Shown: positions 3,457-9,264 of the stretch, piece after piece
How the letters are laid out: each line of letters begins with the position of its first letter
How positions within the stretch are numbered: the stretch's first letter is position 1
NCBI RefSeq assembly: GCF_027912455.1
Contig: NZ_CP115446.1
Span: 124,001 to 188,000, forward strand
Direction: 5' to 3'
Length of the DNA stretch: 64,000 nucleotides
DNA from: Aurantiacibacter sp. MUD61
GTDB lineage: Bacteria > Pseudomonadota > Alphaproteobacteria > Sphingomonadales > Sphingomonadaceae
Made by a program: the position numbers and the translations under genes
The notes under the pieces: generated by a model
Told to the model about the DNA's origin: nothing
The model's database searches: none
The model's input: only the letters and a program-made list of their open reading frames with translations

Positions 3457-4606
3457 GTTTCTCTATACGATCGTTTTCCTGATCATCCTCGTGGGCGCTG
3501 GTGCGTTCGTGCTGCGCATGTACGGCGAGGAACTGACCGAGCTCACCTTCGTGCCGGACAGCGAGTTCGTTGCGCCCGACGCGCTGGCGGACAACGCCTA
3601 TCAGGACCCGGCCATGTGGTTCAGCCGCCCCGGTAAGGGCGCGCAGAACGATCCGGCACGCTGGCAACCGCTGTTTGAAGGCGATGAAGGACCGCGCGAG
3701 GAGGATGGCACGCCAATTCCCTCAGCTGACCTCCCGACCCCGCGCTTCGCAGTATTCTTTGTTCATCCGACCAGCTATTTCGATGGTCGCCAATGGAATG
3801 CGCCGATCGATGACGAGGAATCGCAGGCCCGCGCGCGGTTGATGGTGCGCGGCATGGCGAGCGCGTTCAACCAAGCGAGCGAGATCTGGGTGCCGCGCTA
3901 TCGCCAGGCGACTTTCGGTGCGTTCATCACCATCGATCCGCAAGCGCAGGAAGCGCTCGACGCGGCCTATTCGGATATCGAAGCGGCCTTTGCCTTTTTC
4001 GTAGACTCAATCCCGGCAGATATGCCGATCGTCATCGCCGGACACAGCCAGGGCGGCTATCACGCGACCCGCCTGCTGGAAGAGCAGGTCGCCGGAACCC
4101 CGCTGCAACAGCGCGTCGCCATGGCCTATCCCATCGGCTGGCCGATCAGCATCGAACATGATTTGCCGAGCCTTGGCCTGCCGGCATGCGCGACGGCCGA
4201 TCAATCGGGCTGTATCGTGAGCTGGGCGAGCTTTGCCGATCCGCCCGAACCCGGCCAGTTCCTGCGCCGCTACACCGAGCTTCCCGGCATGGACGGAGAG
4301 CCGCGCGGCGAATCTCCAATCCTCTGTGTCAATCCGCTGACCGGCGTGATGGGCGGCAGCGCCGATGCGGAGATGAACCTTGGCACGCTGGTTCCGGAAG
4401 ACGATCTGTCGACCGGCACGCTTGTCAGGCGCTCTGTGCCCGCGACCTGTGCGGACAACGGCCTGCTGATCATCGGCAATCCGCCCGATCTTGGCCAGTA
4501 TGTGCTGCCGGGCAACAATTACCACGTCTATGATATTCCACTCTTCTGGCAGAACCTGAACGAGGACGTGGTGCGAAGAGTGGCGGCATGGCAACCCGCG
4601 CCCTGA
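3404..4606 (+). CDS. DUF3089 alpha/beta-hydrolase, membrane-anchored
   Basis: A lipase-like alpha/beta hydrolase of the DUF3089 type. One N-terminal membrane segment (KFLYTIVFLIILVGAGAFVL) would anchor it with the catalytic domain in the periplasm. The nucleophile elbow is GHSQGG, preceded by the conserved FFVHPTSYFDGRQWNAP region; the C terminus contains NNYHVYDIPLFWQNL. The start is uncertain. Four in-frame ATGs lie at 3392-3404, all with poor ribosome sites and deep inside the upstream gene. GGAG about 8 nt before CTG 3449 would give (M)RKFLYTIVFL, a more natural N terminus. The substrate is unknown. The 3' end overlaps ruvX by 19 nt. Confidence 0.85.
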   Translation: MKRPGSTAKAPWRPTLRKFLYTIVFLIILVGAGAFVLRMYGEELTELTFVPDSEFVAPDALADNAYQDPAMWFSRPGKGAQNDPARWQPLFEGDEGPREEDGTPIPSADLPTPRFAVFFVHPTSYFDGRQWNAPIDDEESQARARLMVRGMASAFNQASEIWVPRYRQATFGAFITIDPQAQEALDAAYSDIEAAFAFFVDSIPADMPIVIAGHSQGGYHATRLLEEQVAGTPLQQRVAMAYPIGWPISIEHDLPSLGLPACATADQSGCIVSWASFADPPEPGQFLRRYTELPGMDGEPRGESPILCVNPLTGVMGGSADAEMNLGTLVPEDDLSTGTLVRRSVPATCADNGLLIIGNPPDLGQYVLPGNNYHVYDIPLFWQNLNEDVVRRVAAWQPAP

Positions 4607-5082
4607 TCACCGAGAACGCCGCCGAATTCCGTGACGCGCTGCCCGATGGCGGTGTGCTGCTCGGCCTCGACCTCGGCACCAAGACCATCGGCATTGCCAC
4701 ATGCGATGCCGGCTGGAGCTTTGCCACGGCGGGCAAGACCCTGGCCAAAGGCAAGTTCGCGCGCGACAAGTCGGCGCTGGAAGCGATTTGCAAGGATCGC
4801 GGTGTGGCGGGTGTCGTGATCGGCCTTCCGCTGAATATGGATGGCAGCGCCGGCCCGCGCGCGCAGGCAAGCCGCAGTTTTGCTCGCAACCTCGTCCAGC
4901 AGGACATCGGCCTCGGTCTGCCTGTATTGCTGTGGGATGAGCGCTGGTCCACAACAAGTGCGGAGCGCGATCTGATTGCGCAGGATCTCAGCCGAGCCAA
5001 ACGCGCCGAGCGGATAGACAGCCACGCGGCTGCCGTCATCCTGCAAGGCGCGATCGATAGGCTGGCAGGCGGTATCCTTTAA
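4588..5082 (+). CDS. ruvX: RuvX/YqgF-type Holliday junction resolvase or pre-16S rRNA nuclease
   Basis: A 164-residue RNase H-fold protein of the YqgF/RuvX family, linked to 5' maturation of 16S rRNA and proposed to resolve Holliday junctions. Family motifs are present: LLGLDLGTKTIGIATCD near residue 24 with the first acidic residue, VVIGLPLNMDGSAGPRAQA in the middle, LWDERWSTTSAE with the second acidic site, and RIDSHAAAVILQ with the last Asp. The start overlaps the DUF3089 gene. The TAA stop interlocks within 4 nt with the stop of the convergent gene on the other strand. Homologs are often shorter; the extra N-terminal 20 residues are usual in alphaproteobacteria. Confidence 0.94.
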   Translation: MATRALITENAAEFRDALPDGGVLLGLDLGTKTIGIATCDAGWSFATAGKTLAKGKFARDKSALEAICKDRGVAGVVIGLPLNMDGSAGPRAQASRSFARNLVQQDIGLGLPVLLWDERWSTTSAERDLIAQDLSRAKRAERIDSHAAAVILQGAIDRLAGGIL

Positions 5083-5978
5083 GCCAGTTCGAGCGCCGCT
5101 CTGCGCCGTGTGGCTTCTCTCGCGATCAAGCGGCTGCCGGAACATTCCGCCGCGCGCCAAAGTGCATCCTGAGCAGCGCCATCAAGCACCCCCGCCTGCG
5201 CTTCCAGCGCTACCAACCGCATGCGGTCGCTAGGGTGCGACCCGGCGAAGTGGTGCGCAAGATCGCGCGCCTCCTCGCCCCCCAGCCCGACCGCCATGCG
5301 GAGGAAAATCTCACTGCCGCCAGAACTCACCACTCCGGCAATCACATCATTCTCGACATCGAAGCGATACTGATCGAGCCACCCTTGTGCCCCGCCGGCA
5401 TGCATGATGTTGAGCGAAACCGAGAGGCTTTCCGGCGGCAATTGCGAATGTACATCGCGATGTGCGCGGTAATGCATCAGCTTTCCGGGGGAGAGCGTCG
5501 CGCGTTCCACGAAGCGCAGATTGGCCTTTTCTCCCACAACGCCCGCCACGGCTTCATAATCATATTCGTAATAATCACTGGCATAACCAGGCCCGAAATA
5601 TCCGACAGTTAAAAAATCGAAATTATGGTCATGCGGCAGCTCGTAAGAGAAAGCGGAATGGCCCGATGCGCGGAACATGTGTTCATCCCGGCTCGGCCAG
5701 AGATTGGCGCGCAGATAGAATTCGCTGCCGAGAGCCGAGAGCATGATGGTTTGGGGGCCGTAGTCCCCCGGCACTTTCGAGCTTTCCGGCCCGCGCTTCA
5801 GTTCCTCCACCATCAAATCGGCGAGAAATTCGCGATTGTTATTGAGCCTGCGAAGCCAGCGCGCTGCGCCCAGCAGGCTGTCTTCTTCCCAGGGATTGAA
5901 CCCTTTTTCGTGAAGCGCGTCGATACATTCGCCAAGCTCGCACGATGAGGTATCGTCGCAATGGATTACGCGGGGCAT
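5079..5978 (-). CDS. Cupin-like protein of unknown function, third gene of the small-peptide cassette
   Basis: I cannot assign a described function to this 299-residue soluble protein. In the middle is HDHNFDFLTVGYFGPGY (His116, His118, with Glu138 following), and about 50 residues later GKLMHYRAHRDVHSQLPP (His169, His173, His177). The spacing resembles the two metal-binding motifs of a cupin. The last 80 residues are helical and repeat-like (EEARDLAHHF, DRMRLVALEAQAG), similar to the end of the neighbouring protein. The start at 5978 is set by GGAGG six nt upstream and by a 13-nt overlap with the previous gene; a longer frame to 6104 exists but is less likely. An iron-dependent peptide-modifying enzyme is a reasonable guess, not shown. 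Confidence 0.75.
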   Translation of the reverse strand: MPRVIHCDDTSSCELGECIDALHEKGFNPWEEDSLLGAARWLRRLNNNREFLADLMVEELKRGPESSKVPGDYGPQTIMLSALGSEFYLRANLWPSRDEHMFRASGHSAFSYELPHDHNFDFLTVGYFGPGYASDYYEYDYEAVAGVVGEKANLRFVERATLSPGKLMHYRAHRDVHSQLPPESLSVSLNIMHAGGAQGWLDQYRFDVENDVIAGVVSSGGSEIFLRMAVGLGGEEARDLAHHFAGSHPSDRMRLVALEAQAGVLDGAAQDALWRAAECSGSRLIAREATRRRAALELA

Positions 5979-6934
5979 CTGTCGGCCTCCAGTCTGGCAA
6001 ATTCGGGATAGGTTTCGAGCAGCTGTGCTCGCAGCGCTCCCGCTGCTGCCGCGAGCGGATCGTCCCCAGTGCGGGCAACTCGCGCAAGCGTGCAGAAACC
6101 GCATGCGCTATCGAGGGCGATACACTCGCGAAGCGCCTGCCAGCGCAGTGACACGTCTTTCGCGGCAAGCGCGATCCGGGCAAGCTCAGGCGCGGCATCG
6201 CGGCGACCCATGCGCCCGAGCAGGGCAATCATGGCTTCCTGTCGGCTGATCGCGACCGAGGCTGCGCTTTGGCTCACCAGCCTGCCGGTTTTTAGATTAA
6301 AGCTTCGCTTCGGCTCCGGATCAGCAGCATCGCGCATGAGCTGCAGAGTAACCAGCCGCCGTTCCACCACGTCGACGACAAGCGTTTCGCTCGTGCGATC
6401 CAGAGCGATGCGCTCTTTCCCTGTGAGCACCATTGCCTGCGCACTGATATCCACGCGGTCCTCGCCAGCGCTGTGCGCCCGCAGGATGCGTGCTTCGGCG
6501 CGGCCGGCTAGCACGGCATCATATCGGGTCGCATCGCTAAGCGTGATTGACTCAGCGCCATAAGTGCCGGGTTCGCGGGTCTGCACCATCAATTGGGCGC
6601 GTCCCGATCTGGCGAGCAAGGTCGAACTCGCTCTGCCGTCGAAGCCGGTGCGGAAAGGCGGATGGCCAATCGGATTGGCCCGGATCGCGGCGCAATAATG
6701 CTGTGACAGCAGGCGCATCAGGCGTTCCGCTTCGCCGCATTCAGTGAAAATTGTCTCGAGCTGGGGGCAATGCTCCAAAGGTGCTCCGGCACCGTAGCGC
6801 TGCAGCTCCGAAAGCATCGCATCGGCACCGGGCTCCGCCCGCCAAGCCATGCGTGCGCGCTCCATGGCGGTCTGGGCGTCGCGTTGCGGAGAGCGATCTC
6901 TCCGCAACGCTGCGATTTCAGGATTTACGTCCAT
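5966..6934 (-). CDS. HEAT-like repeat protein of unknown function, second gene of the small-peptide cassette
   Basis: A 322-residue soluble protein without signal peptide or membrane segment. The N-terminal 100 residues are helical with several Cys and His. The middle is beta-rich (LMVQTREPGTYGAESITL, RIALDRTSETLVVDV). The C-terminal 100 residues read as HEAT-like helical pairs (MIALLGRMGRRDAAPELARI, DVSLRWQALRECIALD, DPLAAAAGALRAQLLETYP). No catalytic motif is recognisable. It starts 17 nt after the stop of the 51-residue peptide ORF and overlaps the cupin-like gene by 13 nt, so the three probably work together. A binding or chaperone role for the peptide or the cupin protein is inference. 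Confidence 0.75.
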   Translation of the reverse strand: MDVNPEIAALRRDRSPQRDAQTAMERARMAWRAEPGADAMLSELQRYGAGAPLEHCPQLETIFTECGEAERLMRLLSQHYCAAIRANPIGHPPFRTGFDGRASSTLLARSGRAQLMVQTREPGTYGAESITLSDATRYDAVLAGRAEARILRAHSAGEDRVDISAQAMVLTGKERIALDRTSETLVVDVVERRLVTLQLMRDAADPEPKRSFNLKTGRLVSQSAASVAISRQEAMIALLGRMGRRDAAPELARIALAAKDVSLRWQALRECIALDSACGFCTLARVARTGDDPLAAAAGALRAQLLETYPEFARLEADRCPA

Positions 6935-6951
6935 CGCCTGACCCGATTCAA

Positions 6952-7107
6952 TCAGAACAAGCCGCTGGCCGGCGGATTGCTGTCATAGACGATGGTGGCG
7001 ATCACAATGATCGTATCGTCATGGCCGGGGCCTTCGGAAAAACCGAAGAAGCCGGTCAGCTTGTCGAGGTCCGGCAGGCTGGCGAGATCGATCTTGGGAA
7101 GTTTCAT
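6952..7107 (-). CDS. 51-residue peptide, candidate precursor of the cassette
   Basis: A short ORF reads from ATG at 7105-7107 to TGA at 6952-6954, with GGAGAACC about 6 nt upstream of the start. The N-terminal half begins MKLPKIDLASLPDLDKL and goes on to TGFFGF; it is amphipathic and leader-like. The second half carries HDDTIIVIATIVYD and ends PPASGLF. There is no Sec or Tat signal, no membrane helix long enough to span, and no cysteine. The stop is 17 nt before the repeat-protein gene, followed by the cupin-like gene, all on one strand. The arrangement resembles a ribosomally made peptide followed by modification genes. Coding status rests on ribosome site, spacing and composition. Confidence 0.65.
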   Translation of the reverse strand: MKLPKIDLASLPDLDKLTGFFGFSEGPGHDDTIIVIATIVYDSNPPASGLF

Positions 7108-7206
7108 TGCGGTTCTCCATTTGCACGGGGCGACACCATGTCGACCTGTGCAAAGCCTGCCGATGCAGAACCGCCCTTTGAAATTAAATTGCTGTAATCA
7201 CTGTAT
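7108..7206 (-). promoter_or_regulatory. AT-rich leader of the peptide cassette
   Basis: The 99 bp between the sirohaem-type gene and the peptide ORF contain a markedly AT-rich stretch (about 7165-7215) in otherwise GC-rich DNA, partly within the last codons of the upstream gene. A promoter for the cassette is plausible, but I cannot name convincing -35 and -10 boxes. Read-through from the argH-lptM-lysA operon is also possible, since everything runs on one strand. Confidence 0.3.
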
Positions 7207-7995
7207 TTATTGTAATTTTTCTATATTGAGTACAATCACCAGACCGTCAGGCTCAGAGCCCTCAAAAGGTTGGAAAAAACGCTGCGCATCAGCCCTGGCA
7301 CGGGCGAGAATTTCGGCAGGAATCGCAGGATCAGCTATGATCGCATCTGCGCTGCCAAGGAGCCGAGCCTGACGCAGCGTCAGATCCTCGGGATCATCAC
7401 TGGTGAGTGTGAAAGTGATCCTCTGCGATGACGTGACTTCGTCAGCCCCTTCGAGCCAGTCATCCAGCCGGGCAGGCCCACCTTCGCGCAGGGGATCTAG
7501 CGGCCCGCCTTCGCGCATCGCATCGTCCAGCGCGCGGCGCCGGTCTGGCATGGCAGGAAAGCGCGCCTTGATCGCATCGCGCGCGCCGAACAATCTCTCG
7601 GCGAGCTGGCCAAGATCGGCGGGAAGAAGCTTTTCGAGGCGCAGGCGCAATTGCTTGGCAAGCCCCGCCGATGCCCCACCCGTCCCCACCGCCACGAGCA
7701 CGGGATCGCGATCAAGTATGCTTGGCGTCGTGAAATCGCACAGATCAGGCCGGTCGACGACATTGACGAGGAGCCCGGCACACCGCAGGCGGATCGCATC
7801 GGCTTCGCACATGGCCGCGTCATCATGCGCGACGAAGGCTATCCGAGCGCCTTCATCTATGCCGGTCTGCATATCGGTGATGATATGCGCGCCAGCCCGC
7901 TCGACCAAACGCCGCTTTGGCTCGGCCATATCGCCTTCACCCAGAACGATCACCGGCTTGCCGGTCAGCTGGTGGAAGAGCGGGAGCGACTGCAT
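7207..7995 (-). CDS. Precorrin-2 dehydrogenase / sirohydrochlorin ferrochelatase-like protein with a methyltransferase remnant
   Basis: The N-terminal 150 residues match the CysG-N/Met8p fold, which oxidises precorrin-2 with NAD and inserts iron to form sirohaem for sulfite and nitrite reductases. Visible motifs are VIVLGEGDMAEPKRRLVE near residue 16 and DFTTPSILDRDPVLVAVGTG near 87. Residues about 192-241 (ITFTLTSDDPEDLTLRQARL and SADAIIADPAIPAEIL) resemble the first strand-helix units of the CobA/SUMT methyltransferase domain. The remaining 200 residues of that domain are absent, so methylation would need a separate enzyme. It begins 3 nt after lysA. Length 262, against about 457 for full CysG. 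Confidence 0.85.
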   Translation of the reverse strand: MQSLPLFHQLTGKPVIVLGEGDMAEPKRRLVERAGAHIITDMQTGIDEGARIAFVAHDDAAMCEADAIRLRCAGLLVNVVDRPDLCDFTTPSILDRDPVLVAVGTGGASAGLAKQLRLRLEKLLPADLGQLAERLFGARDAIKARFPAMPDRRRALDDAMREGGPLDPLREGGPARLDDWLEGADEVTSSQRITFTLTSDDPEDLTLRQARLLGSADAIIADPAIPAEILARARADAQRFFQPFEGSEPDGLVIVLNIEKLQ

Positions 7996-7998
7996 TGC

Positions 7999-9264
7999 CT
8001 AGCTAAGCAGGAAGTCCGGCACGCGTTCGGCATCGGCGATATCGCCGGGCAGGATGCGATCGGCGACCACGGCATAATCGCTGCCATCGACCATCACTTC
8101 AGCCACGAATCCGCGCGAGTTGTAACTGCTGGCCATGGTCGCGCCATAGGCCCCGGCGGTCCGGAACACGGCGAGATCGCCCGATGCCAGCACGTCGGTC
8201 TCCCGGTCCATTGCGAAAGTGTCCCCGGTCTCACAGATCGGGCCGACGATATTGGCCATCATCCGCTCGCCCGAAGGCTTGACCGCATCGAAATCGTGCC
8301 ATGCACCGTAGAGCGCAGGCCGCGCCAGATCGTTCATCGCCGCATCGACGATCACGAAGGGGTGGTTGAGGCCTTTCTTCACGCGAATCACGCGGGTCAG
8401 CAGCACGCCCGCATTGCCCGCGATCACACGCCCCGGCTCGAACATCAGCGTAACATCCCAGCCTTTCGTGATGCGCGCGACCATTGCGCCATATTGAGCG
8501 GGAGACGGCGGCACTTCGCCTTTTCGATAGGGCACGCCAAGACCCCCGCCGAGGTCCATATGCGTGATCGTGTGCCCCGCAGCTCGCAGGCGAGACAGCA
8601 TGGCACCGAGCTTTTCGAAGGCCAGTTCCAGCGGCGTGAGTTCTGACAGCTGGCTGCCGATATGCACCGCAAGACCGCGCAATTCGAGACCGGGGAGCGC
8701 CGAGAGCTCGGCAAACAGTTCCGGCGCGCGGCCGATGGGAACACCGAATTTGTTGTCCGCCTTGCCGGTCGAAATCTTGTCATGCGTGCCCGCGTCGACA
8801 TCCGGGTTCACGCGCAAAGCGCAGCGCGCAACTTTCCCGCGCGCAGCCGCAATGGCCGCAAGCTCGCGCCCTTCTTCGCCCGATTCAATGTTGAACTGGC
8901 CGATGCCAGCGTCGAGCCCCTGAACCAGCTCGGCATCGGTCTTGCCGACGCCGGAGAACACGATGTCGCTTGCCGGCATGCCCGCCTGCATCGCGCGCGC
9001 CAATTCACCGCCGGACACCACGTCCGCCCCATATCCTTCGCGGCTGAGCAATTTAAGAACCGCGAGGTTGGGATTGCTCTTCACCGCAAAGGCGATGTGC
9101 GGCGGTTTCTCAAGGTCGCTCAGCGCCTCTTTGAACACTCTTGCATGGCGCTCGAAAGTCGCGCGCGAATAGACGTAGACAGGTGTGCCCACCTCGTCTG
9201 CGATGCGCGACAGTGGCACATCCTCGGCGTACAGCTCGCCATTGCGGATCTGAAAATGGTCCAA
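7999..9264 (-). CDS. lysA: Diaminopimelate decarboxylase
   Basis: LysA decarboxylates meso-diaminopimelate to L-lysine, the final step of lysine synthesis, using PLP. The 421-residue protein has the PLP lysine Lys62 in AFAVKSNPN, the phosphate-binding GGGLGVPYRKGE region near residue 235, MFEPGRVIAGNAG, and the GPICETGD motif with the active-site Cys from the partner subunit. A late Tyr lies in GAYGATMASSYNSR. It starts 3 nt after the lptM stop, giving the common argH-lptM-lysA order. The ATG beginning MDHFQIRNGELYAEDV is the family N terminus. Confidence 0.97.
   Translation of the reverse strand: MDHFQIRNGELYAEDVPLSRIADEVGTPVYVYSRATFERHARVFKEALSDLEKPPHIAFAVKSNPNLAVLKLLSREGYGADVVSGGELARAMQAGMPASDIVFSGVGKTDAELVQGLDAGIGQFNIESGEEGRELAAIAAARGKVARCALRVNPDVDAGTHDKISTGKADNKFGVPIGRAPELFAELSALPGLELRGLAVHIGSQLSELTPLELAFEKLGAMLSRLRAAGHTITHMDLGGGLGVPYRKGEVPPSPAQYGAMVARITKGWDVTLMFEPGRVIAGNAGVLLTRVIRVKKGLNHPFVIVDAAMNDLARPALYGAWHDFDAVKPSGERMMANIVGPICETGDTFAMDRETDVLASGDLAVFRTAGAYGATMASSYNSRGFVAEVMVDGSDYAVVADRILPGDIADAERVPDFLLS

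Follow-up and report, generated by a model that had tools for sequence, protein, structure and literature searches.

The stretch analysed here is a 64,000-nucleotide (nt) window of the Aurantiacibacter sp. MUD61 genome (contig NZ_CP115446.1, positions 124,001 to 188,000), in which three consecutive minus-strand genes encode a short peptide, P0001, and two larger proteins, P0002 and P0003. We propose below that this trio resembles the biosynthetic units of ribosomally synthesised and post-translationally modified peptides (RiPPs). An earlier note on this DNA had described a short open reading frame (ORF) at 7107-6952 with a ribosome site, a gap of 17 nt between its stop and the start of the second gene, and a 13-nt overlap of the second and third genes; all of these lie where it placed them. 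The features, in window positions, are the following.

7180..7199, minus strand: promoter-like element GATTACAGCAATTTAATTTC (family consensus GATTACAATCTTTTAATTTC)
7120..7154, minus strand: leader hairpin TTTGCACaGGtCGACAtggTGTCGcCCcGTGCAAA, immediately 5' of the peptide ribosome-binding site
7115..7118, minus strand: ribosome-binding site GGAG of the peptide gene, ending 7 nt upstream of the ATG
6952..7107, minus strand: P0001, putative precursor peptide of 51 amino acids (aa), with conserved N block MKLPKIDLASLPDLDKLTGFFG, variable linker, conserved C block DDTIIVIATIVYD and variable tail
5966..6934, minus strand: P0002, 322 aa; predicted N-terminal helices, degenerate thiol-dioxygenase-type cupin barrel and HEAT-like C-terminus
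5966..5978, minus strand: stop/start overlap of P0002 and P0003, 13 nt
5079..5978, minus strand: P0003, 299 aa; predicted N-terminal helices, thiol-dioxygenase-type cupin (H116/H118/H177) and HEAT-like C-terminus

Conservation of the unit and of its peptide

The best 80 of 391 places encoding P0003 relatives in a named genome collection (the named loci) come from genera such as Aurantiacibacter, Alteraurantiacibacter, Croceibacterium, Qipengyuania, Altererythrobacter and Novosphingobium; of the eight seed peptides, two are found again in this set. A peptide ORF is recognisable upstream in 79 of the 80, and the last locus is ended by its contig end. Because the ORF keeps this position in its relatives, the 51-aa peptide is not a chance ORF. 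Its stop lies 0-60 nt upstream of the P0002 gene in 75 of 78 named loci, and in 65 of these 78 the two larger genes overlap by exactly 13 nt, an arrangement that points to translational coupling. The order-wide set comprises 39 loci, 38 of them evaluable, and includes the window's own locus and some identical to named loci; here tblastn recovered the peptide (E<0.01) in 27 of the 38, and in the other 11 it was recognised visually in the corresponding position, twice with no ATG start. The tblastn comparison suggested by the earlier note thus finds the trio conserved in sphingomonads, and no regular lack of the peptide beside homologues of the two proteins is seen.

At E<=0.001 the searches returned 4038 relatives of P0003 and 1022 of the peptide, with a single occurrence of P0001 in the window's own genome. 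Among the 120 peptide relatives listed of the 1022, the named ones are hypothetical or uncharacterised, in line with the earlier view of the peptide as unannotated, as regards its function. In genome samples drawn from larger groups, P0003 relatives occur in 37 of 147 genomes of the order, all 37 in the window's own family; the phylum sample contains them in 10 of 299 genomes, one beyond that family, and further sampled groups in 2/197 and 2/369.

The consensus of 79 peptide sequences begins with MxLPKIDLxxLPxLDxxTGxFGS, followed after a linker of differing length by DDxIVVIMxYVYE/D and then by a variable tail. The two sequence blocks, previously noticed in the window peptide as an amphipathic first half and a distinct second half, are real and form its conserved parts. 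The median ratio of nonsynonymous to synonymous substitution rates (dN/dS) is 0.43 over 2134 non-independent pairs with dS of 0.15-1.5. Pooled by region, it is 0.26 in the N block, 1.18 in the linker, 0.40 in the C block and 1.13 in the tail. The N and C blocks are therefore under purifying selection, the property on which the note had made its idea depend, and they flank a hypervariable linker; linker and tail evolve without visible constraint. P0001 contains no cysteine, which excludes thiol oxidation of the window peptide, and cysteine is present in 6 of the 79 relatives.

Two related cupin proteins

P0003 is, in a confidently predicted model, a thiol-dioxygenase-type cupin followed by HEAT-like helices, and structure comparison of this model returns thiol dioxygenases. 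Of the metal-binding pattern previously read in this protein (H116, H118, E138, H169, H173 and H177), three histidines hold: H116 and H118 are invariant in alignments A1, A2 and A5, and H177 is kept in 69/69 rows of A2, 14/14 of A5 and 34/35 of A1, which omits L014 (no open frame) and the fragments L035 and L043. H177 is missing only from L029, where a single in-frame stop interrupts the frame. The other positions vary, E138 being kept in 64/69 (A2) and 7/14 (A5), H173 in 57/69 and 4/14, and H169 in 34/69 and 2/14. The predicted fold and the conserved histidines together support the expected metal site, with H116/H118/H177 as the likely ligands in a cysteine-dioxygenase-type fold, and P0003 would accordingly be classed as a probable metalloenzyme. 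Residue R90, 26 residues N-terminal of H116, is kept in 68/69 (A2) and 14/14 (A5); we take it to be placed like the arginine of cysteine dioxygenase that holds the substrate carboxylate ahead of the first histidine.

SxHxY comprises catalytic residues of thiol dioxygenases, whose H155 and Y157 are named in PDB titles. At this position, matched by spacing alone, P0003 reads S186-x-S188-x-N190 in 69/69 rows of A2. This bears on the idea that P0003 is a true thiol dioxygenase, or that the unit belongs to sulfur metabolism beside the siroheme (CysG-like) gene of the window. The fold match and the CysG-like neighbour would suit such a role, which we nevertheless judge very improbable in view of the SxSxN reading, the Cys-free window peptide with cysteine in so few relatives, and the lack of a CysG-like gene among the Pfam-identified neighbours of the distant loci L145, L149, L164, L167 and L169.

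P0002 is a diverged paralogue of P0003 without the metal histidine set. Its thiol-dioxygenase-type fold is predicted with a weaker match than that of P0003, and HEAT-like helices end both models. The second protein had been described as a repeat-type protein that presents the peptide; as a P0003 paralogue it is more than a repeat scaffold, and it may serve as a peptide-binding or partner subunit.

Family scans of the three proteins gave nothing above cut-off in Pfam, NCBIfam, PADLOC or PHROGs, PDB sequence searches gave matches at E>0.1 or none, and phage records gave no match. A DUF692/MNIO match is lacking in Pfam for P0002/P0003 relatives and in NCBIfam for P0002/P0003 themselves. P0003 does not match Cupin_8, so that a JmjC-type 2-oxoglutarate oxygenase was rejected. 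The Pfam and NCBIfam scans of the trio contain no PqqD-like match that would indicate a RiPP recognition element; a recognisable element of this kind is missing from many RiPP classes. A literature search of titles and abstract openings found no description of the trio, so the earlier statement that no described family is recognised for it stands. Many public records of P0003 relatives carry the name 'transposase', apparently a spreading misannotation; P0003 has no transposase match in Pfam, NCBIfam or PHROGs, and its model is that of a cupin with helices.

Leader, neighbourhood and distant copies

The 20-nt promoter-like element lies 85-105 nt upstream of the ATG and has at least 13 of 20 consensus matches in 73 of 76 loci. 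The trio's copy is the sole perfect match in the genome to a 17-nt pattern of the element, and two sites are found with two mismatches, against 11 for a reversed control pattern; we therefore claim no regulon. The folding-energy z-score of the window leader is -2.8, and the mean is -1.57 for 74 leaders (the window's and those of 73 among the 80 named loci) against -0.36 for 73 coding controls. RNAalifold predicted no pairs in a 44-leader alignment, so covariation is not demonstrated, and the hairpin is supported by the folding energy of single sequences. Rfam gave no credible match over 4500-8000, its two hits being far below the gathering score. The element, together with a hairpin set against the ribosome-binding site, suggests dedicated expression control of the trio, and 7120-7199 on the minus strand is possibly a new cis-regulatory leader.

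The trio is flanked on one side by RuvX, DUF3089, AI-2E, signal peptidase, ACPS and PdxJ genes, and on the other by CysG-like, LysA-type and ArgH-type genes. No exporter or protease lies alongside it, a negative that for exporters and TldD/E covers this neighbourhood and not the whole genome. ORF clusters judged by eye to be ArgH-like and CysG-like recur around the trio in 40 and 22 of the 80 named loci, respectively. Since housekeeping clusters of the window type recur in this way, the sphingomonad trio reads as a vertically kept operon and not as a mobile cluster.

Gammaproteobacterial copies are sporadic (12 of 295 sampled genomes of one family), with further copies in Rheinheimera texasensis, in Pseudoalteromonas records and on plasmids of Alteromonas stellipolaris and Vibrio sp. 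ED002. The A. stellipolaris plasmid operon combines two candidate peptides with the enzyme pair and an exporter. Our set holds 14 two-gene loci in 12 areas, L163/L165 and L170/L171 being same-genus pairs. At L145 (with a HEAT_2 match), L146 and L164 no separate profile match identifies the partner gene, which was recognised from its position, its size or visual inspection. In addition, no partner was found for the cupin at locus L172, and remnants interrupted by in-frame stops occur in two more genomes. A short upstream ORF with a ribosome-site-like sequence was recognised in 10 of the 14 loci, by eye and without a chance control; elsewhere there is one candidate peptide downstream and one weak candidate, and none is convincing at L146 and L149, a small ORF that precedes the L149 pair on the minus strand not being counted. 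The candidate peptides vary strongly among loci and clades.

Neighbours were scanned with Pfam at L145, L149, L164, L167 and L169 and partly at L168, L170 and L171. A MacB permease, an ABC ATPase and an HlyD protein occur together in 3 of the 12 areas (L145, L164 and L167/L168), a count that may be low because the neighbours of L134, L163, L165 and L166 are represented by sequence starts only. The same three areas also encode an ABC-2-type permease together with an ABC ATPase (at L164 and L167 the match falls short of the curated cut-off); a Yip1-domain protein is found at L145 and L167, and an S49 peptidase at L167. Three copies of the enzyme pair lie within ~15 kb around the exporter, S49 peptidase and ABC-2-type pump (L167 5520-19742 and L168 746-1693), possibly a multi-peptide cluster. 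Two TldD/PmbA-type proteins stand directly downstream at L169 (1 of 12 areas). L170 (8152-9712) and L171 (9136-10663) combine the enzyme pair with a peptide bearing a typical double-glycine leader, ~3 kb from a non-ribosomal peptide synthetase gene; an adjoining 293-aa protein (L170 10138-11019) has no Pfam match. At L149 (7073-10208) the pair lacks a peptide on its own strand, has a Cupin_8/JmjC-type oxygenase gene upstream and may represent a variant that uses two oxygenases. Pairs identified by eye, which we take to be a fusion protein with an RND-type (resistance-nodulation-division) efflux protein, lie near the trio at L134 3574-7931, L163 11715-16071 and L165 2255-6605.

The Vibrio plasmid copy (L146 22369-28018) may have spread with the help of its neighbours, a Tn3-family transposase and a recombinase. 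Such plasmid copies, and the many NCBI records named 'transposase', would fit a toxin/antitoxin, defence or mobile-element module. There is scarcely any weight left for this explanation, given that no transposase, defence or phage family and no phage record was matched, and that the window copy and many named relatives sit in a housekeeping neighbourhood.

Proposed role and comparison with known systems

We propose that the trio is an undescribed RiPP-like unit, comprising a precursor, a modifying cupin (P0003) and its metal-less paralogue (P0002) as presenting partner, with a probability of about 0.7. In this scheme the small gene would supply the precursor peptide, P0002 would bind its conserved N block and present the C block, and P0003, with a metal on H116/H118/H177, would oxidise residues of that aliphatic block. 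The most likely reaction would be an O2- and metal-dependent oxidation (hydroxylation, desaturation or crosslink), favoured by the many aliphatic residues in the short strand that forms the C block. In sphingomonads the product may be a conserved, vertically inherited peptide with no dedicated exporter nearby, whose role would be endogenous rather than antibiotic since the C block is conserved and no exporter lies alongside. In some Gammaproteobacteria, the same enzyme pair would act on variable peptides that are trimmed by proteases and exported by MacB/HlyD systems. The complex, the modification and its target residue, chemistry, product and biological role are all put forward here as inferences from these patterns.

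The earlier idea of a ribosomal-peptide cassette is thus borne out as regards trio conservation, selection on the peptide, a cupin fold with three histidines, and exporters or maturation-type proteases near some distant copies; in the window the trio is surrounded by housekeeping genes and has no exporter or protease next to it. Several points weigh against our proposal: the trio sits among housekeeping genes, sphingomonads keep both blocks of the peptide, this conservation takes in the DDxIVVIMVYVYE part of the presumed core, which is unusual for an antibiotic-like RiPP, and R90 ahead of H116 would suit a small substrate. The first two and the last favour the main rival, in which the peptide, rather than being a substrate, would belong permanently to a heteromeric cupin enzyme as a small subunit, or regulate it, and the enzyme would act on some small molecule or on a different protein. 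We consider this unlikely, as candidate peptides are very different from clade to clade, a double-glycine leader is present at two related loci, exporters or maturation-type proteases occur at 4 of the 12 gammaproteobacterial areas, and the peptide's linker and tail lack visible constraint.

Within the RiPP-like proposal, we rate the enzyme pair as the new part of an otherwise RiPP-like system. A further-reaching joint reading, which we hold only tentatively and at somewhat less than even odds, is that of a new RiPP class in which a thiol-dioxygenase-fold/HEAT metalloenzyme and its metal-less paralogue oxidise aliphatic residues of a Cys-free precursor; in many Erythrobacter- and Novosphingobium-type sphingomonads the trio would belong to the core genome, and Gammaproteobacteria would have an exported variant, carried in part on plasmids. 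If true, RiPP biosynthesis would gain an enzyme fold not linked to RiPPs in the literature searched, with a built-in metal-less presenting partner; a function would be provided for a large family whose named members are listed as 'transposase' or 'hypothetical'; and many sphingomonads would make one conserved modified peptide from a housekeeping locus.

The trio shares with RiPP units a short precursor 5' of dedicated enzyme genes and a conserved N block, and in some relatives an exporter, an ABC-2 pump, a TldD/TldE-type pair or a double-glycine leader; it differs in an enzyme pair without a Pfam/NCBIfam family, a C block conserved in sphingomonads and a window locus without an exporter. Thiol dioxygenases (cysteine, 3-mercaptopropionate, plant cysteine oxidase and ADO) resemble P0003 in its predicted fold and three-histidine pattern, whereas the trio has a HEAT-like C-terminus, a metal-less paralogue, SxSxN for SxHxY and a Cys-free substrate candidate. 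The darobactin cluster encodes the exporter DarBCD, comparable with the set at L145, L164 and L167, where a small precursor and a modifying enzyme have a MacB-type permease, an ABC ATPase and an HlyD protein nearby; its modifying enzyme is a radical-SAM (S-adenosylmethionine) protein, in contrast to the cupin pair here. The active/inactive pairing of P0003 and P0002 recalls TldD/TldE, in which an active subunit is joined by a paralogue suggested to be catalytically degenerate and required for the complex (PMC10885120). TldD/TldE is a protease of another fold, and it is at L169 that a TldD/PmbA-type pair is the trio's neighbour. PbsQ, a cupin/JmjC-type hydroxylase of a biphenomycin-like RiPP cluster, is a precedent for a cupin-fold enzyme that acts on a RiPP precursor (PMC12257519). 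PbsQ is described there as related to a JmjC-domain protein, whereas P0003 is nearest to the three-histidine thiol dioxygenases, has a HEAT-like domain and is accompanied by a paralogue.
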